From a virus, in IMG/VR virus record IMGVR_UViG_3300021594_000097, positions 64,640 through 96,845 of that record: 32,206 nt of DNA; one strand, 5' to 3'. The position numbers were made by a program, and so were the translations under genes. Position 1 is the stretch's first letter. Every line of letters begins with the position of its first letter. Positions 10,066 through 32,206 of this stretch are shown piece by piece. The notes beneath the pieces are model-generated. The model saw nothing but the letters and a program-made list of their open reading frames with translations. It ran no database searches and was not told the origin of the DNA.

Positions 10066-10067
10066 TG

Positions 10068-10075: not shown

Positions 10076-10101
10076 CTACATCGCTTTAGGGGTTAAACAT
10101 A

Positions 10102-11607: not shown

Positions 11608-11631
11608 TAGTAGTATTTAATAGGAAATAAC

Positions 11632-12537: not shown

Positions 12538-12549
12538 CAAGGTTAAACT

Positions 12550-13712: not shown

Positions 13713-14060
13713 ATGGACGATCGTTTAGAAAAAGCACTTGAATTTTCAAATTTTATGACTACGCTGAATAATCAGCGCAGAGTCATTCGTGAACAATTTT
13801 TAGAAAATTGTATACATTATCTTAATGGCGGTAAATTTTCAGTTACTAGAGAACTGATCAATTTTTGCAGTTTAATGCAAAGTCGAGGTCACGCTAATAT
13901 TGTTCTTATAGATGACAACGATGCTCCGGTTGAAGTATCTGATCTAGAAAAATTTTTAGATGACATAACTGACATTTATTTTACTAACTCAAATGAATAC
14001 CTTAATAAGTACAACGAAATCAAAAAAAATAGAACAGTAAAGGGACTTGTTAATTTATGA
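13713..14060 (+). CDS. Conserved small phage protein of unknown function, 115 aa
   Basis: This acidic, mostly helical 115-residue protein begins M-D-D-R-L-E-K-A-L-E-F-S-N-F and has Y-L-N-G-G-K-F-S-V-T-R-E-L-I-N-F at residues about 37-52, then V-L-I-D-D-N-D-A-P-V and a C-terminal F-L-D-D-I-T-D-I-Y-F. I recognise the pattern from short hypothetical proteins common in marine T4-like phages, but no function is known to me. It is the promoter-proximal gene, with a perfect promoter and ribosome binding site, so it should be abundantly made early. Its TGA overlaps the next ATG (ATGA), suggesting coupled translation with the glycosyltransferase behind it. No signal peptide or membrane segment is visible. 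Confidence 0.7.
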   Translation: MDDRLEKALEFSNFMTTLNNQRRVIREQFLENCIHYLNGGKFSVTRELINFCSLMQSRGHANIVLIDDNDAPVEVSDLEKFLDDITDIYFTNSNEYLNKYNEIKKNRTVKGLVNL

Positions 14061-17237: not shown

Positions 17238-18120
17238 AGTAGCGGAACAGGACATTATTTTCCTTAGTTATGACGAACCTAATGCTGAAAAAAATTATGC
17301 TGACCTATGTGCAAAAGTTCCTTGGGCAAAAAGAGTTCATGGAGTTAAGGGCAGCGACGCCGCACACAAAGCATGTGCCGCACTAAGCGAAACAGAATAC
17401 TTTGTTACTGTAGATGCTGATAATATAATTGGTCCAAAATTTCTTGACATTGAAGTAGACTTAGCAGAATTAGGTCTCACTACTGAGCATGTGTTTAGTT
17501 GGTGCGGAAAAGTTCACGTCAACGGCCTTATGTATGGCAATGGTGGTTTAAAAATGTGGACACGTAAATTTGTTAATAATATGCGTACACACGAAAATTC
17601 AGCAGTTGACGACGAAAAGGGAAAAGTAGAATTTTGTTTTGACGAAAAGTATTATCAGTTCAACGACAGTTATTCAGAAAGTTTTACTAATGCAACACCT
17701 TTTCAAGCCTGGCGAGCAGGATTCCGCGAAGGTGTTAAAATGAGCCTCAACCAAGGCACTAAAACTACTGATATAAAAAAGGTGTGGTGGCAAAATTATC
17801 AACGATTACTTATATGGTGCAATATTGGTGTAGACGTTGATAACGGCATTTGGAGTACAATAGGTGCTCGAGAAGGTTGTTACATGACTAATTGTACTGA
17901 CTGGGATTATGCACAGGTGCGCGACTTTGAATATTTAACTGAGTATTGGAAAGAAAAGGGATACGGTCCTACAACAGATACTTCTGATTATTTTAATTGG
18001 TTAGGTACTGAACTTAAACACAAGTGCGGTTTAGAAGTTTCCAATATTGATAGTGACGGTTCAAAATTTTTCAAGACGGTGTATCAAAACACGCCAAGAA
18101 TAATTAAAAGGGCAAAATGA
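17227..18120 (+). CDS. Family 2-like GT-A glycosyltransferase, 297 aa
   Basis: The N-terminus reads D-I-I-F-L-S-Y-D-E-P-N-A followed by A-K-R-V-H-G-V-K-G and A-A-H-K-A, then V-T-V-D-A-D-N-I-I at 61-68, where D63-A-D65 is the metal-binding DxD. This layout is that of GT2-like transferases and closely matches the protein encoded at 27022. The C-terminal half differs: it carries N-A-T-P-F-Q-A-W-R-A-G-F-R-E-G, and a tyrosine- and tryptophan-rich tail near residues 195-260. It has no membrane helix, so it acts in the cytoplasm or at the inner face of the membrane. It overlaps the unknown gene before it by 11 bases and the radical SAM gene after it by 4 (ATGA). Substrate unknown. Confidence 0.7.
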   Translation: MKIKVAEQDIIFLSYDEPNAEKNYADLCAKVPWAKRVHGVKGSDAAHKACAALSETEYFVTVDADNIIGPKFLDIEVDLAELGLTTEHVFSWCGKVHVNGLMYGNGGLKMWTRKFVNNMRTHENSAVDDEKGKVEFCFDEKYYQFNDSYSESFTNATPFQAWRAGFREGVKMSLNQGTKTTDIKKVWWQNYQRLLIWCNIGVDVDNGIWSTIGAREGCYMTNCTDWDYAQVRDFEYLTEYWKEKGYGPTTDTSDYFNWLGTELKHKCGLEVSNIDSDGSKFFKTVYQNTPRIIKRAK

Positions 18121-19499
18121 GCAACGAGCAAAAAATACAAATACTCAAAGATAAACGAGATAAAATTAACTCAGTAAGTTGTAGTTTTTGCACAGCTAAA
18201 TGGTTACAAACAACTTTATATCTGCAAAACGGTTACAATCACAGTTGCCATCATCCTGCTCCTCATAAGATTCCTCTCGAAGAAGTACTAGCAGATCCTG
18301 CGGCATTGCATAACAGTAAATTTAAAAAAAGCCAACGTGAACTGATGCTCAAAGGCGAGCGACCTAGTGAGTGTGATTATTGTTGGAACATAGAAGATTT
18401 AAATAAAGATTATTTTAGCGATAGGCATTATAAAACATCGGATTACTGGGCATGGGATAAATTTGATCAAATTGCTAACAGCGACCCTAATGATAATGTT
18501 TATCCTAGTTATTTAGAAATTAGTTTTTCCAATGCATGTAATTTTGCGTGTATTTACTGTAGTCCTGAAATTTCATCTAAATGGATGGAAGATATACAAC
18601 AGAACGGGTCTTACCCAGTTAAGAATGGAGCTCATCATTTAGGCTGGTTAAAACAAGTGGGACGTTATCCGTATGCACATCACGATGAGAATCCGTATGT
18701 AGACGCTTTCTGGAAATGGTTTCCAGAAACGTTACCGCATTTAAAAGTGTTGCGTATTACAGGCGGTGAACCAACTATGAGTAAAGACTTATGGAAATTA
18801 TTAGATTACTTAATTGAAAACCCGCAGCCTGAATTAGAATTAGCTATTAACACTAACATGTGTGTGCCTGATGTATTAATTGAAAAATTAATTAATAAAA
18901 TTAATAGCTTACGAGGTGTGATAAAGCGTTTAGATATTTACACTAGTCTTGAAAGCACTGGATCTCAGGCAGAATATGCAAGAGACGGATTAGACATCAG
19001 TGTATGGCAGCAGAATGTTTGTAAAGTATTAGATAATACGCAATCAACAGTGGCTATAATGACCACTGTTAACATATTAAGTTTACCTACCTTTGTAGAT
19101 TTTATAGAACTAGTAATGCAGTTACGTAAAGATTACAATACAAACTTTGAACATAATCGAATTCCGCTCAGTATAAATTATCTAAGATGGCCACCACATT
19201 TGCAATGCACTCTTTTAGATAAAGAAGAAAGACAGCAGTATGCAGATGATATCTATGTAGCTTGTGAAAAATGGCTGAAATATTATAGCTTAGAAAAGTA
19301 TGCTCGAATCTATTTAGAAGAATGGGATCAAATACAAAGATTTTGTGATTACTTACGCACAGCAGAACCAGCAGTAGAACACAGACAGGACTTTGTAAGA
19401 TACATACAAGAGTATAATTTTAGAAGAAACAAATCGTTTACTAAGATATTTCCTGAATTCAAAAACTTATTAAAGGAATGGGATGCCCAAGAAGCCTGA
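18117..19499 (+). CDS. Radical SAM protein with N-terminal twitch/SPASM-like domain, 460 aa
   Basis: The radical SAM cluster motif is C141-N-F-A-C145-I-Y-C148, the [4Fe-4S] site that cleaves S-adenosylmethionine. I-T-G-G-E-P-T at 214-220 is the usual second SAM-contact motif. Ahead of the core lies a cysteine-rich domain: C22/C25, C44-H-H, and C86-x-x-C89 following M-L-K-G-E-R-P-S-E. That order is what SPASM or twitch domains show at the C-terminus of other radical SAM enzymes, so this protein appears permuted. It is about 100-130 residues longer than the simple radical SAM proteins of the operon. The next gene is its tandem paralogue. Such enzymes usually modify a peptide, sugar or cofactor; no substrate can be named. 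It overlaps the preceding gene by 4 bases. Confidence 0.85.
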   Translation: MSNEQKIQILKDKRDKINSVSCSFCTAKWLQTTLYLQNGYNHSCHHPAPHKIPLEEVLADPAALHNSKFKKSQRELMLKGERPSECDYCWNIEDLNKDYFSDRHYKTSDYWAWDKFDQIANSDPNDNVYPSYLEISFSNACNFACIYCSPEISSKWMEDIQQNGSYPVKNGAHHLGWLKQVGRYPYAHHDENPYVDAFWKWFPETLPHLKVLRITGGEPTMSKDLWKLLDYLIENPQPELELAINTNMCVPDVLIEKLINKINSLRGVIKRLDIYTSLESTGSQAEYARDGLDISVWQQNVCKVLDNTQSTVAIMTTVNILSLPTFVDFIELVMQLRKDYNTNFEHNRIPLSINYLRWPPHLQCTLLDKEERQQYADDIYVACEKWLKYYSLEKYARIYLEEWDQIQRFCDYLRTAEPAVEHRQDFVRYIQEYNFRRNKSFTKIFPEFKNLLKEWDAQEA

Positions 19500-20931
19500 A
19501 GAAGATTTAAAGCAATATAGAGAACGTGTTCTAGACACTAAGAGCACCAGCTTCTGCGGAGCAAAATGGTATAATGCTACTACATGGCTAGGTAGTGGTA
19601 CCACAGCAAGTTGCCATCATCCTCCAGCACATAAAATTCCAATAGAGGAAATTAAACGTAATTACACTGCTATTCATAATACTGAACATAAAAAAGAAAT
19701 GCGTCGAATGATGCAGTCTGGCGAACGCCCTCGCGAGTGTGAGTACTGTTGGAAAATGGAAGACATGGGCAAAGATGCTGTTAGTGATCGAACATTTAAA
19801 AGTATCATTTATACTGATGAAGAACTACAACAGGCGTTTGATGCAGACATAAACGAAAATACTAATTTAAAAACTTTTGAAATTGCATTTGATAGGGTAT
19901 GTAATCTTGCCTGTTCATATTGTAATGCTAGTTTCTCAACTACATGGGCAAAGGATATTAAAAACAACGGTCCTTATATTAATCTTGTAAGTGACGGCGC
20001 AGGCGCATTTCATCACGATGGATCTTGGGCACAGCCTTACAAAGACGATGAAGATAATCCCTATGTACAAGCATTTTGGAAATGGTGGGATAACGGACTA
20101 TCAGAAAGTCTACAAGAGTTACGAATCACAGGCGGCGAACCTCTAATGAGTGGTAACACATGGAAATTATTTGATTGGTTTGAAGCGCAAAACAGTGATA
20201 TGAGATTTGCTATTAACAGTAACTTAATTGCAAAGTCTGATATTATAGATAAGTTAATTGCTAAATCAAAAAATATTAAACACTTTGATTTGTACACAAG
20301 TTGCGAAGCAGTAGGCGATCAAGCAGAATACATACGTGATGGTCTAGATTATCAACTATGGAAAACAAATCTAAAAAGAATTCTTACAGAAGCAAACTAT
20401 AAAGGTGTACACATAATGATGACTATTAATAGTTTATCTTTGTTTAGTATTACTGAATTTCTTGACGAAATGTACCAGCTAAAAGAAATGACACAAAGTA
20501 GAACTCCTACTGTTAGTTTAAATCTGTTAAGATTTCCTAGTTTTCAAAGTCCGTTGGCACTACCTAATCATATTAAAGATCATTGCCATAAAAAGCTGTC
20601 AACATGGTATGCGCAAAATAAAGACCTACCAGGTTGGCACGAATTTGAACGTGCAAGTATTGAAAGATTAATTGATTATCTTGTTACAGTAGATGCACCT
20701 CATCGCAGAACAAGTAATCCTATTACACTGTGGAGAGACTTTAAAACTTTTTATCAGCAGTACGATCAGCGCAGATCAAAATCCATATATGTATTTCCTA
20801 AAATTTTAACAGATTGGATTGATACTATACCTGATACAGACATAGCAATAAAAGAGTTAGCAGACAAAGAAGGCTGGGTGTTAACACCTGACTCAAGGAA
20901 CATTGATGATCCTATTGCGACCTACAATTAA
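19483..20931 (+). CDS. Radical SAM protein, tandem paralogue, N-terminal twitch-like domain, 482 aa
   Basis: It has the same architecture as the preceding gene and clear sequence similarity along its length. N-terminal ligands are C25, C44-H-H and C86-x-x-C89 at the same spacing. The core motif is C140-N-L-A-C144-S-Y-C147, and I-T-G-G-E-P at 215-220 is the second motif. Both proteins also share Y-V-[DQ]-A-F-W-K-W just before it and D-[IL]-Y-T-S-[LC]-E-[SA] with a following A-E-Y-[AI]-R-D-G-L-D. AAGGAA at 19472-19477 precedes the ATG by 5 bases and lies within the 17-base overlap region with the previous gene. Both copies keep every cluster ligand, so both should be active. They could act on related substrates or as partners. 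Confidence 0.85.
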   Translation: MPKKPEEDLKQYRERVLDTKSTSFCGAKWYNATTWLGSGTTASCHHPPAHKIPIEEIKRNYTAIHNTEHKKEMRRMMQSGERPRECEYCWKMEDMGKDAVSDRTFKSIIYTDEELQQAFDADINENTNLKTFEIAFDRVCNLACSYCNASFSTTWAKDIKNNGPYINLVSDGAGAFHHDGSWAQPYKDDEDNPYVQAFWKWWDNGLSESLQELRITGGEPLMSGNTWKLFDWFEAQNSDMRFAINSNLIAKSDIIDKLIAKSKNIKHFDLYTSCEAVGDQAEYIRDGLDYQLWKTNLKRILTEANYKGVHIMMTINSLSLFSITEFLDEMYQLKEMTQSRTPTVSLNLLRFPSFQSPLALPNHIKDHCHKKLSTWYAQNKDLPGWHEFERASIERLIDYLVTVDAPHRRTSNPITLWRDFKTFYQQYDQRRSKSIYVFPKILTDWIDTIPDTDIAIKELADKEGWVLTPDSRNIDDPIATYN

Positions 20932-22198
20932 TTTATATTACGATAATATTGTTAACGGAATACCTGTTCCTAACGGCATAACACGATATAAAATTAATAA
21001 ACAGTACGATATTCCAGTGATGTCTAGTTTAGAATACAGTGATCAAGTCCTTAAAACTACGTATTTTTATAATGTAATGAAGGCAAACGAAGTCACAGTT
21101 AATTTGTTTACTAAAAGAGATATGGCGTCAAATTTATTTTATCCATTGGAGCTTTCAAAAACAGCAATACGGAATCGTCTTATTGATATTATTCCGGAAA
21201 AGACATTAACTCGTATTAAAAAACGAAAAATGAAATTATTATTACTTTATCAACAATGGATAGGTGATTATAACTTTATGCAAAATCTTAAAGAAAGAAT
21301 TGATGTATTAATTCGAAACGGAGTTCCTACTGATCAAATTTATTTAATAACCGGTGATATTAATTGTTCCTATCAGGAATTATTTGACAAGGTTAAAGTA
21401 TTTGGTATTGATTGGTGGCAAATTGCTTATCAACTAACTTGTAAATCTAAGTATCAAAATATTGATTATCATTGGGTCACATTTTTACTAGATGATGAAG
21501 TGCGTGAAAGTTTTGATATCAATAATTGGAATAATCCCAGTTTACTATTTACAGCATTAACTGGTGAATCGTCAATGCATTCACTGGCTACTATTACTGA
21601 ACTAGAATCTAGAGAATTATTAGATAAAGGTTGCTATGAATTTAATGTTAAGAAAAACAAAAATCTAAATTTAGATAGTAAAATATTTACTAATGAGTCA
21701 TTGTTAAATAACAAACAGTCAAAAAAAGATATAATTAATAATTTATTATCATCTGAGACAACTATCGCAAATATATCGGAGTCATTAGAAGACAGTCTAT
21801 TTGCAATTGTAGCAGAGCCGTTCACACCTATGATGGATAAAACGTATCTGTCAGAAACAAATGCACTATGGGTATCGCCAAATATATGGAACGCTATTGC
21901 TCAAGGTTATCCTTTTATGGTAGTAGGAAGTTTATCTACTATGCGTTATCTTAATAACGAAGGATATTTTAGTTATGTAGATCTGTTTAATGAAACATAT
22001 GATAGTGTTAGTGATTTAAAAATTAAATTAAATTTAATAATGACTGAAGTTGACAGATTATCTAAATTGTCTAAAGAAGAAATTAATGATCGTATAATTT
22101 TAACAAAACCATTTATCGAGGCCAATAAGAAAAAGTTTTATGATAAAAAACACACTTGGAAATTTTACGACCTTTTCAAAGAAATGCAATATGAATAA
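20906..22198 (+). CDS. Unknown protein, possibly glycosyltransferase-related, 430 aa
   Basis: AAGGAA at 20895-20900 is 5 bases before ATG 20906, so I prefer this over the TTG just before it. The gene overlaps the previous one by 26 bases. The N-terminal half is unlike anything I recognise but contains K-L-L-L-L-Y-Q-Q-W-I-G-D near residue 110 and D-Q-I-Y-L-I-T-G-D-I-N near 142, which look like Rossmann-type strands. The C-terminal part has A-E-P-F-T-P-M-M-D-K-T-Y-L-S-E-T and then Q-G-Y-P-F-M-V-V-G-S and E-T-Y-D-S-V-S-D, a pattern similar to E-K...PF..vG...Y-D segments in phage and giant-virus proteins thought to be glycosyltransferase-like. That link is an impression from motifs. No membrane segment is seen. 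Confidence 0.6.
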   Translation: MILLRPTINLYYDNIVNGIPVPNGITRYKINKQYDIPVMSSLEYSDQVLKTTYFYNVMKANEVTVNLFTKRDMASNLFYPLELSKTAIRNRLIDIIPEKTLTRIKKRKMKLLLLYQQWIGDYNFMQNLKERIDVLIRNGVPTDQIYLITGDINCSYQELFDKVKVFGIDWWQIAYQLTCKSKYQNIDYHWVTFLLDDEVRESFDINNWNNPSLLFTALTGESSMHSLATITELESRELLDKGCYEFNVKKNKNLNLDSKIFTNESLLNNKQSKKDIINNLLSSETTIANISESLEDSLFAIVAEPFTPMMDKTYLSETNALWVSPNIWNAIAQGYPFMVVGSLSTMRYLNNEGYFSYVDLFNETYDSVSDLKIKLNLIMTEVDRLSKLSKEEINDRIILTKPFIEANKKKFYDKKHTWKFYDLFKEMQYE

Positions 22199-23450
22199 AG
22201 ATTTTAATAATTTTTGTGTAGCACCCTGGATGCACTTGCACGTCATCAACGACGGTAGAGCTTTTGCATGTTGTCAAACCCCATTAAAAAACGAAAATAG
22301 TTTTGGAAATGTAAAAACTCAAAAACTTATAGAAATTGTTAATAGTGATCAAGCTAAAGTAATGAGGAAAAATATGCTTGAAGGCAAGCCTCTGCCTACT
22401 GCTTGTGAAAGATGTACTTCTAAAGAAGCTGTTGGACTTAATAGTATGCGAACAGGCTTTAATGATAGATGGTATGCAGAAATGCAACCGTTAATTGAAC
22501 AAACAGATATAGACGGTGCCATTCCTTCATTGCAATTAAAATACTGGGATTTTAGATTTAGTAACTATTGTAATCTAGCTTGCACAACATGTTCACCACT
22601 GTTTAGTACACAGTGGGCATCTGATTGGATTAAACTACATCCTGGATACGACAAATATTCTGAAACAAGATTAATTGATTTAGAAAAAGCAGATTTATTT
22701 TGGGACGACATTGCACAAAATTTAGATACAATGAAGCAGATACATTTTGCAGGTGGCGAACCACTAATGATGCCTGAACATTGGAAAATTTTAAAACTAC
22801 TTGATGAACGTAAAAAATATGACATTGAATTAAGATACAGTACCAATGGGACCACGTTAGGTAGAGATAAAGACAATGTATTAGATTATTGGAAAAAATT
22901 TAAACATGTACATTTAAGTTTGAGCATCGATGGCGAAGGTGATGCATTTGAATATATCAGATATAAAGGTAACTGGAAATCTACATTTGAAAATTTAAAA
23001 CGTATACGAGAAAGCGGAGTAGTTGATTATTGGTTTCATCCTACAGTGAGTATATTAAATATATTTAGATTAACAGAATTGCATGAAGTTTTACATAAAG
23101 CAGATCTTATGCCTTTAAAATCAATACACAAGCACATGGGCTTCAACATTGAAAATTATTGGGTTGATAGATTTCACCTGAATCCTTTGTTTACTCCTGA
23201 TTATTATAGTATAACAGTTCTTCCTGCCCATTTAAAAGATCAAGCCGCTGAAAAAATAACAAAGTATGGCAAGAAGCTTGAGGCTGACACAGCAATACCT
23301 TTTAGCGGTTGGCAAAATATTATTGATTTTATGTATAGTGAAGATCGCAGCATACTATTTGAAAAGTTTAAATGGAAATCGCAACAGATTGATACTATTC
23401 GAAACAATGATGTTTTTGCATTTAATCCGGAGCTTATCAATGTTAAATAA
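22191..23450 (+). CDS. Radical SAM protein with N-terminal twitch/SPASM-like domain, 419 aa
   Basis: I start the gene at ATG 22191, which overlaps the previous stop as ATGAATAA, and not at the in-frame ATG 22140; the protein then begins M-N-K-D-F-N-N-F-C, right at the conserved F-C-x-x-P-W of this family. N-terminal ligands are C9, C27-C28 and C72-x-x-C75, with M-L-E-G-K-P-L-P before the last pair. The core is C127-N-L-A-C131-T-T-C134, and F-A-G-G-E-P is at 186-191. The radical SAM domain continues through L-S-L-S-I-D-G and Y-I-R-Y-K-G. It is closest to the operon's last radical SAM gene (30234). It probably modifies an organic substrate by radical chemistry using two iron-sulfur clusters; the substrate is unknown. 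Confidence 0.85.
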   Translation: MNKDFNNFCVAPWMHLHVINDGRAFACCQTPLKNENSFGNVKTQKLIEIVNSDQAKVMRKNMLEGKPLPTACERCTSKEAVGLNSMRTGFNDRWYAEMQPLIEQTDIDGAIPSLQLKYWDFRFSNYCNLACTTCSPLFSTQWASDWIKLHPGYDKYSETRLIDLEKADLFWDDIAQNLDTMKQIHFAGGEPLMMPEHWKILKLLDERKKYDIELRYSTNGTTLGRDKDNVLDYWKKFKHVHLSLSIDGEGDAFEYIRYKGNWKSTFENLKRIRESGVVDYWFHPTVSILNIFRLTELHEVLHKADLMPLKSIHKHMGFNIENYWVDRFHLNPLFTPDYYSITVLPAHLKDQAAEKITKYGKKLEADTAIPFSGWQNIIDFMYSEDRSILFEKFKWKSQQIDTIRNNDVFAFNPELINVK

Positions 23451-24291
23451 AATAAAAAAATATATAAGAGGTTTAACTCTTGAAGAGTATATAAAATATG
23501 TAAAAACATCATCAAGTCATGTTAATAGTATTGACGACCTTGCACAATTTGGTATTAAAAAATCAGTATGGTCTAAAGATGACTATGAGCGCGGCTATAC
23601 AACTGTACTAGGTATGAATTCAGCAGAGGAAAAAATAGTAAAACCTGGAGATTGGGAGTACGTTATCAATAGATACAATTTTAGAGAAATATGGGACTTT
23701 AATTCTCCTAGACCTAAAATTGGATTTTTTGGTTGTAGTTTTACATTTGGTGAAGGTATAGAATATAAAGATACATTTGTTAGTATGGTTTCAAAGCAGT
23801 TTGACCTTAATTGTTTTAATTTAGCTATAGGTGGATCTTCTTTACAAAGGGTGGCAAAAACGTTTAGTGCTGCCTCTAAAGTAATAGATCTTGATTATGC
23901 TGTGTTTACCTTGCCGCAATGGCATAGACAAATGTATCTTGACGATCAAGGTAAAATTGTTAATCTTATACCCCAATGGCCGCATCAACAGTATGAAGAA
24001 TTAAGTAATCAGCTTACTGCTTTAGACGAGGAATATTATATAGTACAAGCAGTATCTTATGTAAACTGGATACATGATTTAGCAGAACATAAAAATATAA
24101 AAATAATTTTATGTTCTTGGGATTATCCACTAAACGATTTATGTGAGGTTATGTACCCTAATGAAACAATAAAACCTTTTCCTAATATTGATGATAAATG
24201 CGCTAGAGATAAAATGCATCCTGGTATACGTTCTCAACATGCACATGCAGAGCAAATTAAAAGAGCAATATATGATAGAGCTTGGTTTTAG
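23440..24291 (+). CDS. SGNH/GDSL-type hydrolase-like protein, 283 aa
   Basis: The start is ATG 23440, 11 bases inside the end of the previous gene and preceded by GGAG; the longer frame back to 23266 merely crosses that gene. I-G-F-F-G-C-S100-F-T-F-G-E-G matches SGNH block I with the nucleophilic serine, N-L-A-I-G-G-S-S at 127-134 matches the following glycine block, and D257-K-M-H260-P-G gives the terminal D-x-x-H pair. These hydrolases and transferases remove or move O-acyl groups, often on sugars of surface polysaccharides. There is no signal peptide, so it would act in the cytoplasm. Its TAG stop is followed one codon later by TAA. Its neighbours are radical SAM and unknown genes. I am confident of the fold and unsure of the substrate. 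Confidence 0.75.
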   Translation: MLNKIKKYIRGLTLEEYIKYVKTSSSHVNSIDDLAQFGIKKSVWSKDDYERGYTTVLGMNSAEEKIVKPGDWEYVINRYNFREIWDFNSPRPKIGFFGCSFTFGEGIEYKDTFVSMVSKQFDLNCFNLAIGGSSLQRVAKTFSAASKVIDLDYAVFTLPQWHRQMYLDDQGKIVNLIPQWPHQQYEELSNQLTALDEEYYIVQAVSYVNWIHDLAEHKNIKIILCSWDYPLNDLCEVMYPNETIKPFPNIDDKCARDKMHPGIRSQHAHAEQIKRAIYDRAWF

Positions 24292-25234: not shown

Positions 25235-26036
25235 TTTTATTAATGGTATATGGGAAAATGCTGGAAATGAATTTTGGAATATTAAGAAACCTGACGAAAT
25301 ATTAGGTATAGCTCGTGTGTCTAAACACATGTTAAGTTATTGGCCCAGAATTAAAAACTACGAAAACTACTTAATAAATTATTTTCAATACGGTATTAAT
25401 AAAGAAGTAGAACCTACTATATGGTTATCTCACACAGATCCTGTGTATAACAGATATCAAGAAGAAATTGAAGGATATGTAAAAGCAGTTTGGCTTACAC
25501 ATGGATTTTTTACTGAAGGCGGTCTAAGAAAGCCAGTTGGGGTTCATTGGAGTCCTGTGTCTCTTGACTGGAGAATACATCCGGGTGGAACAAGACAAGC
25601 AATTATAAAATATTTTGCACCCGATGAAATAGATTGTCTTTGTTTTAATACAGGCGGTCAACCTATGCAATTTATAAAAGAATTTAACACAGTAGAAGAA
25701 ATTGCTGAATATACTAATAGCTCTAAAGTTTTTTTAGTAGTTACAGATGAACGCGGTCATTATATACCGCATGTTCATTTAGATGGATTTACTATTAAAC
25801 CTGCAATGGTCGAGACACATGCACAGATGAAAAAGTTTTTTAGAAAAACTAAGATTGAAGCTAATTTTGATTTAGCTGAGTTAGGATATGATGAAACAAA
25901 AATATTAAAAACTGAAAAAAAACGCATAAAAATAACTATTGAAGATCAGTCTATGGATACAAAGGTAAAAGCAATGCTACTATTACCGTCGTTTAATAAT
26001 TTTGAAGGACATGGAGTTAAAATTGAGCGTACCTAA
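25227..26036 (+). CDS. Unknown protein with W-R-I-H-P-G-G-T-R motif, 269 aa
   Basis: The ATG overlaps the previous TAA as ATGGCTAA. The protein has no membrane helix. Its most distinctive part is residues 105-123, G-V-H-W-S-P followed by L-D-W-R-I-H-P-G-G-T-R, a compact motif that looks like a conserved substrate or phosphate-binding loop. Further on are C-L-C-F-N-T-G-G-Q-P at 137-146 and H-Y-I-P-H-V-H-L-D near residues 176-184 with three histidines and an aspartate, which could form a metal site. I cannot name a family. It overlaps the frame of the following radical SAM gene by roughly 14-26 bases. A role as an enzyme of the same pathway is a reasonable guess only. Confidence 0.65.
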   Translation: MANFINGIWENAGNEFWNIKKPDEILGIARVSKHMLSYWPRIKNYENYLINYFQYGINKEVEPTIWLSHTDPVYNRYQEEIEGYVKAVWLTHGFFTEGGLRKPVGVHWSPVSLDWRIHPGGTRQAIIKYFAPDEIDCLCFNTGGQPMQFIKEFNTVEEIAEYTNSSKVFLVVTDERGHYIPHVHLDGFTIKPAMVETHAQMKKFFRKTKIEANFDLAELGYDETKILKTEKKRIKITIEDQSMDTKVKAMLLLPSFNNFEGHGVKIERT

Positions 26037-27006
26037 TCTAGAACGTGCAGTAGTTGAAGTTTTTGGGGGATGTAATTATACCTGTCAAATGTGTCCACAG
26101 ACTGAAGGTAGAGGCAAGGCCTGGACACGTAAAATGCCACTTAATATGTTTGAAAATATATTAGATCAGTTACCAGGTAATCCAGTTATTAATCTTGAAG
26201 GTAGTGGCGAACCTACTCTTGCTAAAGATTTGCCTTTGTACATAGAAGCATGCACTAAACGAAATTTTCCTAGTTTTATGTATACTAATGGAAGTTTTTT
26301 CAGCGGTCATTTCATGCAAGATTGTGTAGACGCTGGACTAAGTTTTGCAAGATTTAGCTGTATTGGATACAATAAAGAAAAATATCGTGAGTGGATGAAT
26401 GTTGATAATTTTGATTTACTAAAGACCAATGTAATAAAGGCCAAAGAGTATATTAAAAAATCTAACAGCAAATGTATACTGTCTAGTTATCATTTGATAT
26501 TAGATAATACGCAAATAGATTACGAAGTTGAACAGTACCGTAATAATTTTATTGGCCCAACTGGAACGTTAGGATACATATGGAAAATGCACAACTGGAG
26601 TGGCAATTATACTCCTGTATATTTTAGAGATCCTAAAAAACGTAGAACTTGTGGTAGACCATTTGCTCCTGAAATTACAATCCGAGCCGGTGGCAATAAT
26701 GGTCTTACAGGCGCAGTTACTTCGTGTTGTCAAACAATGGGTCCACCAAACGAAAGTTTAAGTGTGCTAGGACATGTAGAAACACAATCAATAGAAGAAA
26801 TATGGAACGGAGAAGCATACAATAAATTACGTGATGCACATGCTAACAAAAATTTTGATAGTATTGATTACTGTAAGAATTGTGATTTTTTATACGACGA
26901 CCCCGAGGTGTTAGTTTGGAGTAACGACAAAGCAGCATCACTAGATCATATGCTTGGAACTAATTTTAGTCTTAAAGACTTTATGGTTGACAATACTTTA
27001 AAATAA
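26011..27006 (+). CDS. Radical SAM protein with C-terminal SPASM domain, 331 aa
   Basis: C21-N-Y-T-C25-Q-M-C28 is the radical SAM cluster motif, and E-G-S-G-E-P at 63-68 is the second motif. The C-terminus carries C214, C239-C240, L-G-H-V...S-I-E-E-I-W-N and C288-K-N-C291, the classic SPASM order for auxiliary iron-sulfur clusters. SPASM enzymes usually act on peptides, less often on sugars or aminoglycosides. The start is uncertain: ATG 26011 has AGGA only one base away, while TTG 26023 has GGAG at a good 6-base spacing and would give a protein starting S-V-P-N-L-E. The longer TTG 26002 is unlikely. The last codons of the gene contain the -35 box of the next promoter. Confidence 0.85.
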   Translation: MELKLSVPNLERAVVEVFGGCNYTCQMCPQTEGRGKAWTRKMPLNMFENILDQLPGNPVINLEGSGEPTLAKDLPLYIEACTKRNFPSFMYTNGSFFSGHFMQDCVDAGLSFARFSCIGYNKEKYREWMNVDNFDLLKTNVIKAKEYIKKSNSKCILSSYHLILDNTQIDYEVEQYRNNFIGPTGTLGYIWKMHNWSGNYTPVYFRDPKKRRTCGRPFAPEITIRAGGNNGLTGAVTSCCQTMGPPNESLSVLGHVETQSIEEIWNGEAYNKLRDAHANKNFDSIDYCKNCDFLYDDPEVLVWSNDKAASLDHMLGTNFSLKDFMVDNTLK

Positions 27007-27015
27007 TAGTATAAT
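26987..27015 (+). promoter_or_regulatory. Perfect sigma70 promoter inside operon, for leaderless start
   Basis: TTGACA at 26987-26992 and TATAAT at 27010-27015 are separated by 17 bases, again a perfect match. The -35 box lies in the last codons of the radical SAM gene. Six bases separate the TATAAT from the ATG at 27022, so the normal start point, seven bases downstream, is the A of the ATG itself. It would drive the last five + strand genes on their own. Confidence 0.75.
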
Positions 27016-27021
27016 AATAAT

Positions 27022-27705
27022 ATGTATGATATCATTTTTATTTCTTATCAAGAACCTTATGCAGACATTAATTGGGAAAGATTAAAGTCTAAATTTCCTA
27101 CAGCTAAAAGAGTTCACGGAGTAAAAGGAATTCATCAAGCACACATCCAAGCGGCAAAATTGTGTTTTACAAAGATGTTTTGGGTCGTAGATGCTGATGC
27201 AGAAATAGTTGAAGATTTTAAATTTGATTATGTTGTTCCTGAATGGGATTTAGAAACAGTACATGTATGGCGCAGTATAAATCCTGTTAACGATTTAGTT
27301 TATGGTTACGGAGGTGTTAAACTACTTCCTCGTAAATTAACAATAAACATGGATACATCAAAAACTGATATGACAACAAGTATTAGTACGTTGTTTAAAG
27401 CAATGCCTGAAATATCTAATATTACAGCATTTAATACTGATCCGTTTAATACGTGGAAAAGTGCATTTAGAGAATGTGTAAAATTATCAAGCAAAACAAT
27501 CGATAGGCAAGACGATATAGAAACTCAGTTAAGACTAGAAGCGTGGTGTACATTAAATGAGTCAGCGCCATACGGCAAATATGCACATCTGGGAGCTATT
27601 GCTGGAAAATATTTTGGTTTGTTTTGGCAAAATGCACCTAGTGAATTAGCGAAGATAAATGACTTCGAATGGTTAAATGAACAATTTTCAAAAAATACCT
27701 TTTGA
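27022..27705 (+). CDS. Family 2-like GT-A glycosyltransferase, 227 aa
   Basis: The protein reads D-I-I-F-I-S-Y-Q-E-P-Y-A, then A-K-R-V-H-G-V-K-G and V-V-D57-A-D59-A-E, the metal-binding DxD. This order matches the protein at 17227, from which it differs mostly by a shorter middle and tail (227 against 297 residues). Both also share Y-G-[YN]-G-G-[VL]-K near residue 95 and a P-F-[NQ]-[TA]-W-[KR] segment. No Shine-Dalgarno site precedes the ATG, and the next in-frame Met is far inside, at residue 52. A perfect sigma70 promoter predicts a leaderless transcript; the alternative is reinitiation by ribosomes ending 15 bases upstream. It overlaps the next radical SAM gene by 29 bases. Confidence 0.7.
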   Translation: MYDIIFISYQEPYADINWERLKSKFPTAKRVHGVKGIHQAHIQAAKLCFTKMFWVVDADAEIVEDFKFDYVVPEWDLETVHVWRSINPVNDLVYGYGGVKLLPRKLTINMDTSKTDMTTSISTLFKAMPEISNITAFNTDPFNTWKSAFRECVKLSSKTIDRQDDIETQLRLEAWCTLNESAPYGKYAHLGAIAGKYFGLFWQNAPSELAKINDFEWLNEQFSKNTF

Positions 27706-28663
27706 ACAAATAGTACGCTTTGGTCAAAAAACTTTATTAGATACTCGTCTTTTTACAGTATCGTGGATCCTTGCAAGATTCTGTAATTATAATTGTTCCT
27801 ATTGCTGGCCCTATGCTAGGTCTGACAAACCAGATCATCAAGAATTAGAATTATACCTACGTACTATTGACAGTATAAAAGCTCAAGCTCGCGCAAATAA
27901 TTTTCCAGATTTTCATTTTAGTTTTAGTGGCGGCGAACCTACTGCTTACAAACAATTTGATAAAATTATAGAACATTACTGTGCGGATAGTAATGCTTTG
28001 TATCAAAGCATCCACATGACCACTAATTTATCCCCTGGCAGTAAATGGTGGAACAATTGGTTAACTACTACAGACTCTTTACAGCGAAGAAGTATTACAG
28101 CAAGTTATCATGCTGAGTTTGCAAAAGAGCAAGAGTTTGGCGACAAATGTTTATATCTTATAAACAATGGAGTATTTGTAACCATTAATCAAGTTATGGT
28201 TCCTAATCAGTTTGATGACTTATATGCTAGATGTGAAAGATTTGCTGAACGAGGTATTAATGTTACTTTAAAACCTCAAAGTGACCCCACCGCAAGTTTT
28301 GTAATAAATGAATACACAACGGATCAAATTGATAAAATGCAAATAGGGTTTCCGCAAGTGTGGCAAAGCGAAAATGTATCTCAAATTGAATTAGAGGATG
28401 CAACAGGTAATAAGTATTATATAGATCAAGCTGAGCGATTCAATGCATTTGGATTTAATAAATTTAAAGGTTGGTTATGTAATGCAGGATATCAAGGAAT
28501 AGTAATTCGAGAAAACGAAGTAAAGCGTAGCTATAGTTGTTACGAACAACCTTTAGGAACATTAGAGCATGGGTTTGATATTTTTAAATCAGCAAAACAC
28601 TGTGTAACACCTAGTTGCGTTAGTAGCGCAGATAGCAAAATACCAAAGATGAAAAATGTATAA
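27677..28663 (+). CDS. Radical SAM protein with C-terminal cysteine cluster, 328 aa
   Basis: C36-N-Y-N-C40-S-Y-C43 binds the SAM-cleaving cluster and F-S-G-G-E-P-T is at 83-89. The C-terminus has C268, C288 (S-Y-S-C-Y), C309 and C314 (H-C-V-T-P-S-C), enough for one auxiliary cluster in a short SPASM/twitch-like domain. The N-terminal 30 residues before the core are ordinary. The ATG lies 29 bases inside the glycosyltransferase gene, the longest same-strand overlap in the operon, and no strong Shine-Dalgarno is visible (GGTT only), so translation is probably coupled. The closest relatives in the operon are the other C-terminal-cluster enzymes at 26011 and 28656, though they differ strongly. 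Substrate unknown. Confidence 0.8.
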   Translation: MNNFQKIPFEQIVRFGQKTLLDTRLFTVSWILARFCNYNCSYCWPYARSDKPDHQELELYLRTIDSIKAQARANNFPDFHFSFSGGEPTAYKQFDKIIEHYCADSNALYQSIHMTTNLSPGSKWWNNWLTTTDSLQRRSITASYHAEFAKEQEFGDKCLYLINNGVFVTINQVMVPNQFDDLYARCERFAERGINVTLKPQSDPTASFVINEYTTDQIDKMQIGFPQVWQSENVSQIELEDATGNKYYIDQAERFNAFGFNKFKGWLCNAGYQGIVIRENEVKRSYSCYEQPLGTLEHGFDIFKSAKHCVTPSCVSSADSKIPKMKNV

Positions 28664-29642
28664 ATTAGAAGATATACGAGACATACACTTAGAAATTACC
28701 AGCAAGTGCCAGGCTCGTTGTCCTATGTGTCCTCGAAGGATAAACGGCGGTGTAATTAATCCGTTAATTAAATTAGATGAAATTAATCTAGACAAATTTA
28801 AGTCTTGGTTTCCTGACTCATTTATTAAACAACTAGATAGTTTGTTTATGTGTGGTAACTTAGGTGATCCTATTATTGCTAAAGACTGTTTAGAAATCTT
28901 TGAATATCTTAGAACAGTAAATCCTTTAATACAATTATCAATGCACACAAACGGTAGTGCAAGAGATAAATCATGGTGGCAAGGTCTAGCCCGTGCAAAT
29001 GTTCGAACAGTATTTGGTATAGACGGGTTAGAAGACACTCATAATTTGTATCGAATTAACACAGACTTTGATAAGATAATTGACAATGCTTATGACTTTA
29101 TACAAGCTGGTGGATATGCTGAATGGCATATGTTAGTGTTTGATCATAACGAGCATCAAATAGAAAAATGTAAAAAACTAAGCGAAGAGCTTGGATTTAA
29201 AAAATTTCAAATTAAACATACTACTAGATTTGAAAAAGGTAAATTCAATGTACTTGACGATGTAGGTAAAACTACACATATCTTATACCCTACACAAAAA
29301 AGCAAAGATATGATGAGTAAGGTAACTGGTTACATTACAGATGTTAAACCAGAGATAAAATGTAAAGCACAGAAGAACAAAAATTTCTATGTATCCTCGT
29401 GTGGTAAAATTACTCCGTGCTGTTGGTTAGACTTTGATTGGATACTGCCTAATCAAAATCGGCGGATTGATTATATGGATAAAATTGGAGTATTACCAGA
29501 TCTAAATAGTCATTCCTTGGGTGAAATTTTTAACAGTGGGTATTTTGATAAAATAGCAGAAACTTGGAATAATGATCCTCTAATAGAATGTAGTAAACAG
29601 TGTGGAACGTTTGACAAATTAGGAGCGCAGTTTGAAAGTTGA
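28656..29642 (+). CDS. Radical SAM protein with C-terminal SPASM domain, 328 aa
   Basis: C18-Q-A-R-C22-P-M-C25-P-R-R is the cluster motif of the CxxxCPMC type, and C-G-N-L-G-D-P at 66-72 takes the place of the usual GGEP. L-S-M-H-T-N-G and V-F-G-I-D-G-L are the expected strands. The tail has I-K-C-K-A, S-S-C-G-K-I-T-P-C-C-W and C-S-K-Q-C-G, the SPASM ligand pattern. The CPMCPRR start and GDP motif are common in radical SAM/SPASM proteins of phages and of peptide- and sugar-modifying systems. It overlaps the previous gene by 8 bases and the next by 11. Its TGA stop lies inside the methyltransferase start region. A radical SAM identity is firm; the substrate is not known. Confidence 0.85.
   Translation: MYKLEDIRDIHLEITSKCQARCPMCPRRINGGVINPLIKLDEINLDKFKSWFPDSFIKQLDSLFMCGNLGDPIIAKDCLEIFEYLRTVNPLIQLSMHTNGSARDKSWWQGLARANVRTVFGIDGLEDTHNLYRINTDFDKIIDNAYDFIQAGGYAEWHMLVFDHNEHQIEKCKKLSEELGFKKFQIKHTTRFEKGKFNVLDDVGKTTHILYPTQKSKDMMSKVTGYITDVKPEIKCKAQKNKNFYVSSCGKITPCCWLDFDWILPNQNRRIDYMDKIGVLPDLNSHSLGEIFNSGYFDKIAETWNNDPLIECSKQCGTFDKLGAQFES
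29621..29625 (+). promoter_or_regulatory. AGGAG ribosome binding site that fixes a TTG start
   Basis: AGGAG lies 6 bases before the TTG at 29632. No ATG in this frame has a comparable site, the first being at 29665. This supports TTG as the start of the methyltransferase gene. Confidence 0.65.
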
Positions 29643-30237
29643 TATACAAGATGTTTTATTTTGGATGGATGCAATTCGTAACAGCGATAATCAACATCGC
29701 ACACTTGAAAGTTTTTGGAAAGGACAAATTAACAGTAAAGTTTGGTTAATAGAATCTTTAGAAAAAACGTTCTCATGGCTTCCAGTAACAGCAAATATTG
29801 TTATATATGGAGGATGGAATGGAGTACTTGCAAGTTTGTTGTTTAATACAGATATAGGTATTAATCATATTACAAGTATTGACATTGACCCTGAATGTGA
29901 AAAAATTGCATCTACAGTTAATAAGAGACAAGAGATAGAAGGTAGATTTAGTGCTATTACAGGTGATATGTGTCATTACACTAATCCCGAAGCTACTATA
30001 GTTATTAACACAAGTTGTGAACATATAACACAACAACAATACGATCAATGGTTTAATTTACTCTCTGACGATGTATTAATTATTGTGCAAGGTAATAATT
30101 ACAATATACCAGAGCATGTTAGAATTTCTCAAGATTTAGAAGAATTCAAATCTCAGTGTAATATTAAAAATATTTTATATGCTGGCGAAATTGATCTTCC
30201 TCTATATAAAAGATTTATGATTATTGGTAAAAAATGA
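29632..30237 (+). CDS. Class I SAM-dependent methyltransferase, 201 aa
   Basis: V-I-Y-G60-G61-W-N-G64-V-L-A is the SAM-binding glycine loop, S-I-D84-I-D86-P-E the acidic strand after it, and I-V-I-N-T-S-C-E-H-I near 123-132 the motif IV region. The N-terminus L-F-W-M-D-A-I-R-N-S...R-T-L-E-S-F-W-K-G-Q is a segment I associate with small phage methyltransferases. The TTG start is supported by AGGAG. About 200 residues is short but complete for the fold. It follows and overlaps a radical SAM gene by 11 bases and overlaps the next by 4. The likely target is a small molecule or sugar of this pathway rather than DNA, since no DNA-binding or DPPY-type motif is seen. An N-terminally truncated relative cannot be excluded. 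Confidence 0.75.
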   Translation: MKVDIQDVLFWMDAIRNSDNQHRTLESFWKGQINSKVWLIESLEKTFSWLPVTANIVIYGGWNGVLASLLFNTDIGINHITSIDIDPECEKIASTVNKRQEIEGRFSAITGDMCHYTNPEATIVINTSCEHITQQQYDQWFNLLSDDVLIIVQGNNYNIPEHVRISQDLEEFKSQCNIKNILYAGEIDLPLYKRFMIIGKK

Positions 30238-31628
30238 ATAAAATTAAACAATGGCAAGATAAAATTGAAGTAGTATCAGGAAGCAAGACTTTTTGCATAT
30301 TGCCATGGATACATTTTGCTACACGACCCAACGGTGATATGCGATTGTGCTGTAGTGCTAATGCTAGTGGTGCAGGTGAGAATCATACTGTAGGCCTTGT
30401 TAAAAACGAAAAAGGGCAACCAGCAAATTTTGGCCGTGAAACTCCTATGAGTGCTTGGAACAATGAGTATATGAAAGATGTACGCTTAACTATGCTTGAA
30501 GGGAAGATACCTGCTAGTTGTAGTAAGTGCATTGCTGAAGAGTCACGTGGGGTTGCCAGTAAACGTATTTGGGAAACAGGTTCTTGGATGGAAGATGGAA
30601 TTGATGTTGAAGAACTTATTAAACAAACCAAAGAAGATGGCACTGTTCCTGAGAAACTTGTTTATTTAGATTTAAGATTAGGACACACTTGTAACTTAAA
30701 GTGTGTTATGTGCAGTCCGCATGACAGCAGTCAATGGGTTGGTGATCACAAGAAAATCTATCCACTATTTCAAGCAAAAGAACTTAAAGAACAAATGCAA
30801 TGGGATAGAAAAGATTTTAATAACTTTTGGCATGAAAATCCAGACTTCTGGAAAGAAATGTATGCACAGATTCCTAATTTAAAACAAGTATACTTTGCTG
30901 GCGGAGAACCATTGATGATTCGCGAGCATAAGTGGTTCCTTGAAGAAATTATTCGTCAAGGGTATTCAGATAAAATTCTTATACGTTATAATACAAATGG
31001 ATTATTAGTTGATGACGAAATTATTGAGCTTTGGAAAAAATTTAAAAAAGTTAAAGTGGGATTCAGCATCGATGCAGTCGGCGATCGTAATTATTATATA
31101 CGCTATCCTAGTGACTGGGATACTATCGAGCGTAATCTTCACAAGTTAGATAATACACCTGACAACATACAAGTTAGTATTGCTACTGCTATACAAATTC
31201 TTAATATTAAACACTTGGCTGATTTTGCTAAATGGAAAATTAAACAGAATTTTAAGAAAGTTAATCTTGAAAATACTGTAGGCGGTATACAAGCTGGCGG
31301 CGGAATTGTTAATATGCATCTGTTGTACATACCTACATTTTTAAGTATTAGACTATTGCCCGAAGCAGACAAAGAAGAAGTACGTAAGAGTTTTGCAGAT
31401 CTTGCTAGTTGGTTATATGAAAATTACAGACAAGATGAAGACTTCTGGAAAAATAATCCGTACGGTTGGAAACGTTGGCAAGCAGTATTAGATTTTATGA
31501 ATGCAGAAGATCATACTGATCAACTACCTGCTTTTAAAGAATACATTGAAAAATTAGAAGCATTACGTAAGACTAATTTTAAATCTACGTTTCCAGAGCT
31601 GGCACATTTGCTACATTGCCCAGTCTAA
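30234..31628 (+). CDS. Radical SAM protein with N-terminal twitch/SPASM-like domain, 464 aa
   Basis: It has the same architecture as 22191: F-C21-I-L-P-W-I-H-F, L-C39-C40-S, M-L-E-G-K-I-P-A-S-C96-S-K-C99 in front of the core C153-N-L-K-C157-V-M-C160. F-A-G-G-E-P-L-M is at 221-228, followed by Y-N-T-N-G and G-F-S-I-D-A-V. It is longer than 22191 by a small insertion near residues 45-70 and a longer tail. It is the last + strand gene; its end overlaps an oppositely oriented radical SAM gene by 44 bases. ATGA links it to the methyltransferase. No intrinsic terminator follows, only a weak hairpin. The enzyme class is secure and its substrate unknown. Confidence 0.85.
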   Translation: MNKIKQWQDKIEVVSGSKTFCILPWIHFATRPNGDMRLCCSANASGAGENHTVGLVKNEKGQPANFGRETPMSAWNNEYMKDVRLTMLEGKIPASCSKCIAEESRGVASKRIWETGSWMEDGIDVEELIKQTKEDGTVPEKLVYLDLRLGHTCNLKCVMCSPHDSSQWVGDHKKIYPLFQAKELKEQMQWDRKDFNNFWHENPDFWKEMYAQIPNLKQVYFAGGEPLMIREHKWFLEEIIRQGYSDKILIRYNTNGLLVDDEIIELWKKFKKVKVGFSIDAVGDRNYYIRYPSDWDTIERNLHKLDNTPDNIQVSIATAIQILNIKHLADFAKWKIKQNFKKVNLENTVGGIQAGGGIVNMHLLYIPTFLSIRLLPEADKEEVRKSFADLASWLYENYRQDEDFWKNNPYGWKRWQAVLDFMNAEDHTDQLPAFKEYIEKLEALRKTNFKSTFPELAHLLHCPV

Positions 31629-32206
31629 CTTTAGGGTTATTAAAGACTGGATTAGTTAGCACTTCTTTAAATGCTGTATATTCTGGATGTTCTGTTTTCC
31701 AGATAGTACGTTGATTGTAAATGTCCTCACTCCATGTTCCCCAATCAATAACTAACTGAAACTCTACATAATAAAAATTAGGGTAACGTGTAAGTATTAA
31801 GTTAGTATAGTCGATCATTTCTTTATAATTTAAATCTTGTACTACAAATTGTGTTAGTACGTTAATGTTGGGATATTTGCTTATTTCGTTATTGATGTAG
31901 TCGCAGTTTATTAGCAACGTTGGCCAATTTCCGCCCCGCCGCACTACGTTATAAGTTTCCTCGCAAGCCGCATCAAAGCTAATTCGAATACTTCTAATTT
32001 TACTGTGCCACTTAGCTATTCTACGCCAATATGCTGGTGTAAGCATTACCCCGTTGGTTTGTAGGTCTAATATTAAGTTAGGCCACGGTGTTGGATCAAA
32101 ATTAACTAGAAACTCACGAAATATTTTAGAACCAAATGGATCTCCACTGCCGGTCATATCTAATGTAATATGTTTGTTATGTGGTTTGTCAAATACAGTA
32201 TTGATA
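31585..32206 (-). CDS. Radical SAM protein, 5' end outside window (partial)
   Basis: The minus-strand frame is open from the right edge to TAG at 31587-31585, at least 206 residues, and the CxxxCxxC core lies outside the window. It is read as a radical SAM protein from H-I-T-L-D-M-T-G-S-G-D-P-F-G-S, where G-S-G-D-P is the second motif, L-D-L-Q-T-N-G-V, then R-I-S-F-D-A-A-C-E-E-T-Y-N-V-V-R-R-G-G-x-W. The M at 32157 is not the start. The ending V-R-L-G-N-V-A-N-V-P looks natural, with no SPASM cysteines visible in the C-terminal part. It is the only minus-strand gene here and converges on the operon, overlapping it by 44 bases. TAG is followed one codon later by TAA. If its core proves intact it brings the radical SAM count to eight. 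Confidence 0.75.
   Translation of the reverse strand, partial: INTVFDKPHNKHITLDMTGSGDPFGSKIFREFLVNFDPTPWPNLILDLQTNGVMLTPAYWRRIAKWHSKIRSIRISFDAACEETYNVVRRGGNWPTLLINCDYINNEISKYPNINVLTQFVVQDLNYKEMIDYTNLILTRYPNFYYVEFQLVIDWGTWSEDIYNQRTIWKTEHPEYTAFKEVLTNPVFNNPKVRLGNVANVPALET
31620..31650. repeat. Inverted repeat at convergent gene ends
   Basis: CCAGTCT (31620-31626) and AGACTGG (31644-31650) can pair around a 17-base loop that includes the last bases of the + strand stop codon. An alternative fold pairs CCAGT with ACTGG and CTTTA with TAAAG. No run of T follows on either strand, so it is not a standard terminator, but it could protect the operon's 3' end. Confidence 0.4.

Follow-up and report, generated by a model that had tools for sequence, protein, structure and literature searches.

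An array of radical SAM genes in a probable variable island beside the tail-fibre genes of a T4-like phage lineage

Dense sets of radical S-adenosylmethionine (rSAM) genes have been described in several phages. The Campylobacter phages CP220/CPt10 encode 11/12 rSAM proteins; five of the rSAM genes make up an exchangeable module together with a putative amidinotransferase, and their authors proposed in 2010 that host metabolism is boosted (PMC2853527). The 12 rSAM genes of the T4-like ocean virus TARA_ERS488813_N000010 were read as serving Fe-S-cluster metabolism (PMC5332604), and the Aeromonas jumbo phage 332-Vera has eight rSAM genes in a structural cluster (PMC12390700). Pelagimyophages, whose host is SAR11, carry a host recognition cluster (HRC), a variable island of the structural region bordered by VrlC and the neck gene gp14, with a mean length of 44.6 kb, which holds tail fibres, glycosyltransferases and rSAM cassettes; GT8 is their commonest glycosyltransferase family, and O-chain modification was proposed for the glycosyltransferases of the HRC (PMC7029224). 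No tested product of a phage rSAM array is reported in the available parts of the literature we found, in a search that excluded preprints and most subscription journals. Here we analyze an array of eight rSAM genes in a stretch of 32,206 nucleotides (the window, G000:C1:64640-96845) from the virus record IMGVR_UViG_3300021594_000097, 96,845 bases in total. Genes are named by their start positions in the window.

The best explanation for this array is that it belongs to a variable island, ~35-50 kb long, which occupies a fixed place beside the tail-fibre genes in a T4-like phage lineage. The enzymes of the island most likely act one after another on a sugar and would thereby produce an unusual glycan, carried either by the host surface or by the virion; we put the probability of this reading at about 0.5.

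The radical SAM genes of the window

A sequence-only reading of the window had assigned seven complete genes and one partial gene to the rSAM enzymes. A PF04055 profile search bore this out for the seven complete genes, all of which matched with E ≤ 6e-4. Their translations agree with the motifs that had been reported, with CxxxCxxC in 7/7 and GGEP, SGEP or GDP downstream of it in each (Table 1). Cut-offs were 29.5 bits for PF04055, 170 bits for the N_Twi_rSAM model NF033640 and 21.5 bits for SPASM. Five of the seven passed PF04055 in the protein search and six in a six-frame search; 28656 scored 29.2 bits in the former and 30.6 in the latter, with SPASM at 22.3 bits, and 19483 scored 20.5 bits with PF04055 but well above the cut-off with NF033640. 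The latter model was passed by 18117, 19483, 22191 and 30234 at 302-415 bits, while 26011, 27677, 28656 and the partial 31585 fell below its cut-off. SPASM matches are N-terminal in 22191 and 30234 (the latter at 21.2 bits, just below the cut-off) and C-terminal in 26011 and 28656; 27677 combines an rSAM domain with conserved C-terminal cysteines and gave no SPASM match. The prokaryotic viperin model NF038283 (cut-off 180 bits) was reached by none, 27677 being best at 40 bits. Two of the genes, 22191 and 26011, were read from ATG codons inside longer mechanically called open reading frames (ORFs) at 22140 and 26002.

The N-twitch proteins are not recent copies, because their identity to 30234 is only 30% (22191), 25% (18117) and 22% (19483). 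An alignment of 22 sequences of the 30234 family revealed that C21, C40, C96, C99, C153, C157, C160 and GGEP (223-226) are invariant. The partial gene 31585(-) gave no Pfam match and scored 34 bits with NF033640 in the window, because the window holds just its C-terminal 206 codons. In the contig L024, which is 99.9-100% identical to window positions 20234-32206 per 1-kb step, the gene is whole (L024:11352-12449(-), 365 codons) and carries CNLTCPSC and TGSGDP, in keeping with its reading as an rSAM gene.

The genes are tightly packed: 12 of the 13 junctions from 17227 to 31628 overlap by 4 to 29 bases, and the remaining one leaves 15 bases. This packing bears on the idea that the rSAM set matures a precursor peptide in a pathway for a ribosomally synthesized and post-translationally modified peptide. 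In its favour are the many rSAM proteins with SPASM or twitch matches and the many peptide maturases among the NCBIfam side matches, all of the latter far below cut-off. Against such a pathway speak the junctions themselves; the right arm of the island (the genes from 31585 onward), where L024 leaves at most 24 bases between genes with mechanical starts; and a search of both strands of 17227-32206, as distinct from the rest of the genome, which found no ORF of at least 20 amino acids (aa) lying mostly outside genes. We consider a matured peptide very unlikely.

Table 1. Features of the window, with the matches that bear on each.
Feature	Position	Strand	Evidence
ORF	3-5471		in window
Tail-fibre/collar operon (6110, 8182, 10102 etc.), island border	5493..13662	+	PHROG tail matches 6110-8182
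115-aa protein, fibre-side island border	13713..14060	+	homologues in same place in G003, G046, G058 (37-50% identity)
GT8 (glycogenin-like) glycosyltransferase a	14057..14917	+	profile A12; homologues in G046, G058
GT8-like glycosyltransferase b	14910..15731	+	in same profile A12
NAD-dependent sugar epimerase/dehydratase, truncated by premature stop	15745..16380	+	PF01370 1.3e-34
Putative GT-A-type transferase c	17227..18120	+	alignment A11, D63 and D65 invariant
rSAM 1, N-twitch type	18117..19499	+	CNFACIYC; PF04055 1.7e-7; NF033640 325 bits; G046 homologue 793 bits
rSAM 2, N-twitch type	19483..20931	+	CNLACSYC; PF04055 6e-4; NF033640 302 bits; G046 homologue 901 bits
Untyped 430-aa protein	20906..22198	+	ATG start; strong matches just in near-identical L021-L024
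rSAM 3, N-twitch/SPASM type	22191..23450	+	CNLACTTC; PF04055 6.4e-14; SPASM; NF033640 379 bits
SGNH-hydrolase-like protein	23440..24291	+	motif by eye; ATG start
Uncharacterised protein, distant relatives in other islands	24272..25234	+	4 relatives, 24-26% identity; ATG start; no Pfam match, PHROG at E 0.077 at best
Uncharacterised protein	25227..26036	+	no family match; confined to L021-L024
rSAM 4, C-terminal SPASM	26011..27006	+	CNYTCQMC; PF04055 1e-10; SPASM 5.5e-11
Putative GT-A-type transferase e, 17227 family	27022..27705	+	alignment A11
rSAM 5, conserved core	27677..28663	+	CNYNCSYC; PF04055 2e-12; family in 68/80 loci
rSAM 6, C-terminal SPASM, conserved core	28656..29642	+	CQARCPMC; PF04055 1.3e-6; SPASM 1.6e-4; 73/80 loci
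Putative class I methyltransferase, conserved core	29632..30237	+	TTG start; alignment A4; 75/80 loci
rSAM 7, N-twitch, conserved core	30234..31628	+	CNLKCVMC; PF04055 5.4e-13; NF033640 415 bits; invariant Cys and GGEP
rSAM 8, C-terminal 206 codons, first right-arm gene	31585..32206	-	complete in L024 with CNLTCPSC

A recurring core and shared borders

For a survey of the core, viral contigs were scanned with rSAM 7, and the best 80 of 90 relatives were retained as loci, trimmed 10 kb from rSAM 7. Proteins were grouped into families by BLAST and Louvain clustering; the counts vary with those thresholds, and most are lower bounds since many of the loci are short. The core consists of rSAM 5, rSAM 6, the putative methyltransferase and rSAM 7, the last present in all 80 loci by selection (Table 1). 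Further families of the island loci (F0, F5-F11, F20) lie mostly in the right arm. Among them, the rSAM families F5, F6, F8 and F9 occur in 59, 51, 43 and 40 loci (F6 includes window gene 22191), and there are a kinase-fold protein (F7, 50 loci), a tandem HxD...H protein (F0, 51), an AspH-type protein (F10, 41) and a PP-loop protein (F11, 39). In members of at least 250 aa, CxxxCxxC is kept in 79/79 (rSAM 7), 77/77 (rSAM 6), 62/64 (rSAM 5), 54/54 (F5), 51/51 (F6), 43/45 (F8), 42/42 (F9) and 15/15 (F20) proteins, and the rSAM families thus look like working enzymes. Neighbour pairs recur as well, F6-F5 45 times, rSAM 6-rSAM 7 30 times and rSAM 7-F9 29 times. PF04055 matches number 4 to 16 per record (median 8, 42 of the 80 records), which says nothing on their frequency because the records were selected for rSAM 7.

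Strong matches to 20906-27006 are confined, among the 80 loci, to the near-identical L021-L024, and this stretch therefore looks like a variable insert. The broader idea that the left-hand genes are rare was partly withdrawn: the trimming hides 18117 and the preceding genes in most loci, and only 20906-27006, where the restriction is seen, lies mostly within the 10-kb reach of rSAM 7. High gene turnover of this kind would suit a loose set of unrelated metabolic genes with no common product, which boost host metabolism as was proposed for CP220/CPt10 (PMC2853527). The recurring core, the neighbour pairs and the borders shared between islands argue instead for a common task, and we regard a loose set as improbable. 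The sequence-only reading had suggested a dedicated multi-step radical pathway; dissimilar rSAM proteins, overlapping genes and a recurring core fit that suggestion and give it partial support.

The island could be followed over its full length in the record G003 (185,762 bases), which is near-identical to the window. It spans 117,976-162,621 there (~44.6 kb), with the fibre operon on one side and, on the other, a gene whose product has an Mtd_N domain (PF18454, 2.3e-9). The complete G003 record has 16 PF04055 matches, at least one of which (at 304-819) lies outside the island. In the records G046 and G058, homologues of the fibre gene 10102, which share 49 and 46% identity with the G003 copy, stand in the same place directly ahead of the island; homologues of the 115-aa protein (37 and 50% identical) also keep their place, and an Mtd_N-type gene, ~30-55% identical over parts to that of G003, marks the same opposite border. 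Measured between these borders, the island is ~35 kb long in G046 and ~50 kb in G058. Gene order on the fibre side of G003 is the 115-aa protein, two GT8-like genes, the sugar epimerase, a small protein, a DxD protein, rSAM 1 and rSAM 2, and G046 has the same order minus the epimerase. In a further record, G055, four rSAM matches lie between the fibre gene and the ATPase gene that in G003 stands beyond the Mtd_N gene.

A second survey was based on the portal protein and was not conditioned on rSAM genes; from the best 80 of at least 598 relatives, the 17 with contigs of at least 35 kb were examined. rSAM matches (2, 12, 2, 6, 6, 4 and 16) were present in 7/17 and absent from 10/17, and NF033640 was above cut-off in 6/17. 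A full-length homologue of the fibre gene 10102-11604 was found in exactly the seven rSAM-bearing contigs, and 0/10 of the others carry rSAM genes; G045, which has no rSAM match, has a partial fibre-gene match (residues 349-465). It is important to note that the ten rSAM-free contigs may simply miss this region, being fragments. Because carriers of the fibre gene and carriers of rSAM genes coincide (7/7), the island looks routine in the lineage with that fibre gene. The claim that such rSAM density is unusual for a phage is not supported as stated: it has been published for several phages and looks routine in this lineage. The portal protein of the record itself is closest to those of jumbo phages, among them Phosso, Atu_ph07 and PA5oct (50-52% aa identity). 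Just before window position 1, a large structural gene of the record is broken by a stretch of unknown bases.

Several right-arm families could be typed. F10 matched solved beta-hydroxylases in the PDB (7v4f, E 1e-16), and PF05118 identifies an AspH-type hydroxylase in the G003 island. The F7 model (predicted local distance difference test, pLDDT, 93) has a protein-kinase fold (Z 13.0, root-mean-square deviation (rmsd) 4.2, 198 aligned), and RIOK2 and the kinase-methyltransferase WbdD, which has a role in O-antigen capping, are among its first Foldseek matches, at low template-modelling (TM) scores. In F7 (L024:18321-18998 (+) and relatives) Y138-P139-H140 and D154 are invariant. Protein-kinase-like enzymes usually carry an HxD catalytic aspartate; the base of F7 may be a histidine, or F7 may be a pseudokinase. 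Another right-arm gene, L024:20124-21155 (+), encodes a single phage protein that joins a cold-shock domain to a 2-oxoglutarate oxygenase domain. PDB profile searches with F11 and F0 gave no convincing match.

F11 also bears on whether the array makes a modified base, by nucleobase or tRNA/DNA hypermodification of the 7-deazaguanine type with a QueC-like PP-loop protein, QueE-like rSAM enzymes and QueD. The match of F11, present in 39/80 loci, to the C-terminal part of QueC is weak (PF06508 0.0055, below cut-off; phrog_1550 2.6e-7), and QueD (PF01242) occurs in 7 of 16 array-bearing records (G004, G007, G016, G018, G019, G025 and G033). However, PF01242 was not found in the window's own and the three longest near-identical records (G000-G003) or in G046 and G058, records that may be fragments, the island sits among fibre genes, and the glycosyltransferase, AspH and SGNH genes would be left unexplained. 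A modified base therefore seems scarcely probable.

Candidate products of the island

Between the fibre operon and the rSAM array lie genes for sugar-handling enzymes. Glycosyltransferases had been said to adjoin the rSAM genes, and for 14057 and 14910 this holds: their family profile matched glycogenin-1 (E 1.2e-5), and in its 10 sequences the DxD motif of GT8 enzymes is kept, with D107 in at least 90% and D109 in all. Neither protein has a Pfam match at E ≤ 0.01. The epimerase 15745-16380 is intact (305 aa) in G003, and its premature stop in the window is either real or a sequencing error.

A glycan is the most economical substrate when the GT8-like genes, the epimerase and the position next to the fibres are considered jointly; no single item fixes it. 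We propose that a nucleotide sugar or glycan would be remodelled by the epimerase and the rSAM enzymes through radical chemistry, which may consist in epimerisation, dehydration, oxidation or decarboxylation. Its decoration would fall to AspH-type and other 2-oxoglutarate oxygenases, the kinase-fold protein, methyltransferases and SGNH esterases, and GT8-like and DxD transferases would attach it. This order of steps would end with the product on the surface polysaccharide of the infected cell, where it would keep out competing phages, or on the fibres of the phage itself, where it would change adsorption.

A possible pointer to a sugar substrate comes from rSAM 5. In the second structural alignment of its model (pLDDT 79), BlsE came first (Z 16.6, rmsd 3.3, 259 aligned), followed by MoaA (14.8), SkfB (14.7) and others at ~14. 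BlsE is a cytosylglucuronate decarboxylase according to its PDB listing, a sugar-nucleoside enzyme, and it is also listed, not first, for the sequence profiles of rSAM 7 and rSAM 6.

A number of observations weigh against a glycan product. With Foldseek, the first matches of rSAM 5 were MoaA and the peptide epimerase EpeE, and BlsE was missing among the best 50; the sequence profile of rSAM 5 gave TigE, anSME and viperin-like enzymes first and did not list BlsE, and the peptide maturase SkfB lies within 2 Z units of BlsE in the structural alignment. The first PDB matches of rSAM 7 were tetraether synthase, SkfB and MoaA. No rSAM protein of the window reaches the cut-off of any listed NCBIfam family of known function, and the substrates given here for the array enzymes are predicted. 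The match of F7 to WbdD is weak (TM 0.46) and missing among the best 50 matches of the second structural alignment. The putative transferases 17227 and 27022 have an invariant DxD and neither a Pfam match (E ≤ 0.01) nor a convincing PDB match. The SGNH protein (23440) and the methyltransferase (29632) that the earlier reading had placed beside the rSAM genes show their motifs by eye, and neither has a Pfam match; the PDB profile search with the methyltransferase family gave no convincing match either. The untyped 20906 has no Pfam or PHROG match. Finally, around bacterial single-copy N-twitch genes, 2 of 90 flanking proteins (12 loci) were Glycos_transf_2, among the 25 of 151 families listed, and no functional theme appeared among these 90 proteins (from 140 candidates at 14 loci, by Pfam), again among the families listed. 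At 12 Bdellovibrionia-type and allied loci, 80 of 108 candidates included three each of Glycos_transf_2, Asp_Arg_Hydrox (PF05118) and rSAM, among the families listed, too few to argue function from.

The same peptide-enzyme matches raise the question of whether the rSAM enzymes and AspH-type hydroxylases instead modify fibre or other virion proteins directly, by radical cross-links or by epimerised or hydroxylated residues, changing host binding, with the glycosyltransferases then glycosylating the fibres. SPASM and twitch domains, present here, are common in peptide-modifying rSAM enzymes. In addition to peptide maturases and a peptide epimerase among the fold and sequence matches of rSAM 5, the island adjoins fibre genes, and its right arm holds AspH-type and tandem HxD...H proteins. 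The phage 332-Vera likewise keeps eight rSAM genes in a structural cluster (PMC12390700). Such direct modification would leave the sugar epimerase unexplained, and the array has no short substrate gene. We judge it unlikely.

Within the glycan reading, a more specific version can be put forward tentatively. The island may be a dedicated assembly line, in which at least seven recurring rSAM steps, together with oxygenases, a kinase-fold protein and glycosyltransferases, would make an undescribed glycan, or a glycan-bearing virion modification, that changes or guards the cell or fibre surface during infection. With named families, a core that recurs, borders in common and a similar neighbourhood, the question of what the island makes can be narrowed to a small set of genes and tested there. 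Should the answer be a surface glycan or a modification of the fibres, phages would have a novel means of controlling adsorption or superinfection, and unusual radical enzymes could be drawn from the island.

Relatives and comparison with known systems

At the DNA level, 18117-31628 had no match among 50,697 phage records. Protein searches of the same records found rSAM 7 in three, rSAM 6 in four, rSAM 1 in three and F6 in five, all at less than 60% identity, and found none for rSAM 5; thus, none of the five queries uncovered a close cultured relative in those records. Vibrio phage K566 (OZ196521.1, 255 kb) has four rSAM-annotated genes near a PagP-type lipid A gene at 161548-180190 and is a possible cultured model.

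A scan of genome contigs gave 130 relatives, of which 76 loci were retained. Several core families occur together in some of these (L101-L104 and L119), which look like phage contigs that were assigned to cellular genomes during binning. One, L101 (PUNK01000001.1), is labelled as a Thermoplasmata archaeon and has rSAM 7 (66% identity) along with other island rSAM genes; it is likely misbinned phage DNA. Runs of five to eleven ORFs with matches to the phage rSAM profiles were seen in bacterial contigs, namely L105 and the Bdellovibrionia and allied contigs L112, L115 and L118. Among the chromosomal arrays are L105, with seven matching ORFs near genes read by eye as ATP synthase and parAB, and L112 (Bdellovibrionia), with nine N-twitch-type ORFs and two F5-type pieces. 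An AspH-like family was recognized by eye in L112, L115 and L121, L112 and L121 being overlapping parts of one contig. These bacterial arrays resemble the phage array in having the same NF033640-like proteins side by side (nine matching ORFs in L112) and differ in having chromosomal neighbours.

Among phages, CP220/CPt10 are similar in being T4-like with an exchangeable rSAM module. Two CP220 proteins annotated with a nucleotide-diphospho-sugar transferase domain adjoin its module. The G003 island holds rSAM genes, sugar transferases and a pentein-type gene, the last outside the window, typed by its match to the arginine deiminase family PF02274 alone and reminiscent of the amidinotransferase of CP220. 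Pentein-type genes were noted at L260:16039-17130 (+) and L269:10261-11316 (-), in the G003 island (PF02274 3.3e-6) and, similar-looking by eye, in G016. The CP220 module differs in its length of ~7 kb; the rSAM 6 match to CP220 is just 24% identical, and searches with rSAM 1, 5, 7 and F6 gave no CP220 match. By its published description, TARA_ERS488813_N000010 is similar in being T4-like with many rSAM genes, and 332-Vera in clustering many rSAM genes with tail-fibre and baseplate genes (PMC12390700); in contrast to the lineage described here, 332-Vera is phiKZ-like (Chimallinviridae).

The pelagimyophage HRC is likewise a large variable island of the structural region that combines tail fibres and glycosyltransferases, and the G003 island, at 44.6 kb, equals its mean length. 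In Pelagibacter phage Mosig, the stretch between the tail fibres and VrlC holds three genes whose annotation is molybdenum-cofactor (MoaA-type) enzyme; also annotated there are an aminodeoxyarabinose aminotransferase, a carbamoyltransferase, an epimerase and two Asp_Arg_Hydrox genes. In contrast to the HRC, the island described here has many more rSAM genes and a recurring multi-rSAM core, and its borders are the fibre operon and the Mtd_N gene. High rSAM density in phages was thus already known; what is new here are the families, their core, the borders of the island and its link to one fibre-gene lineage.

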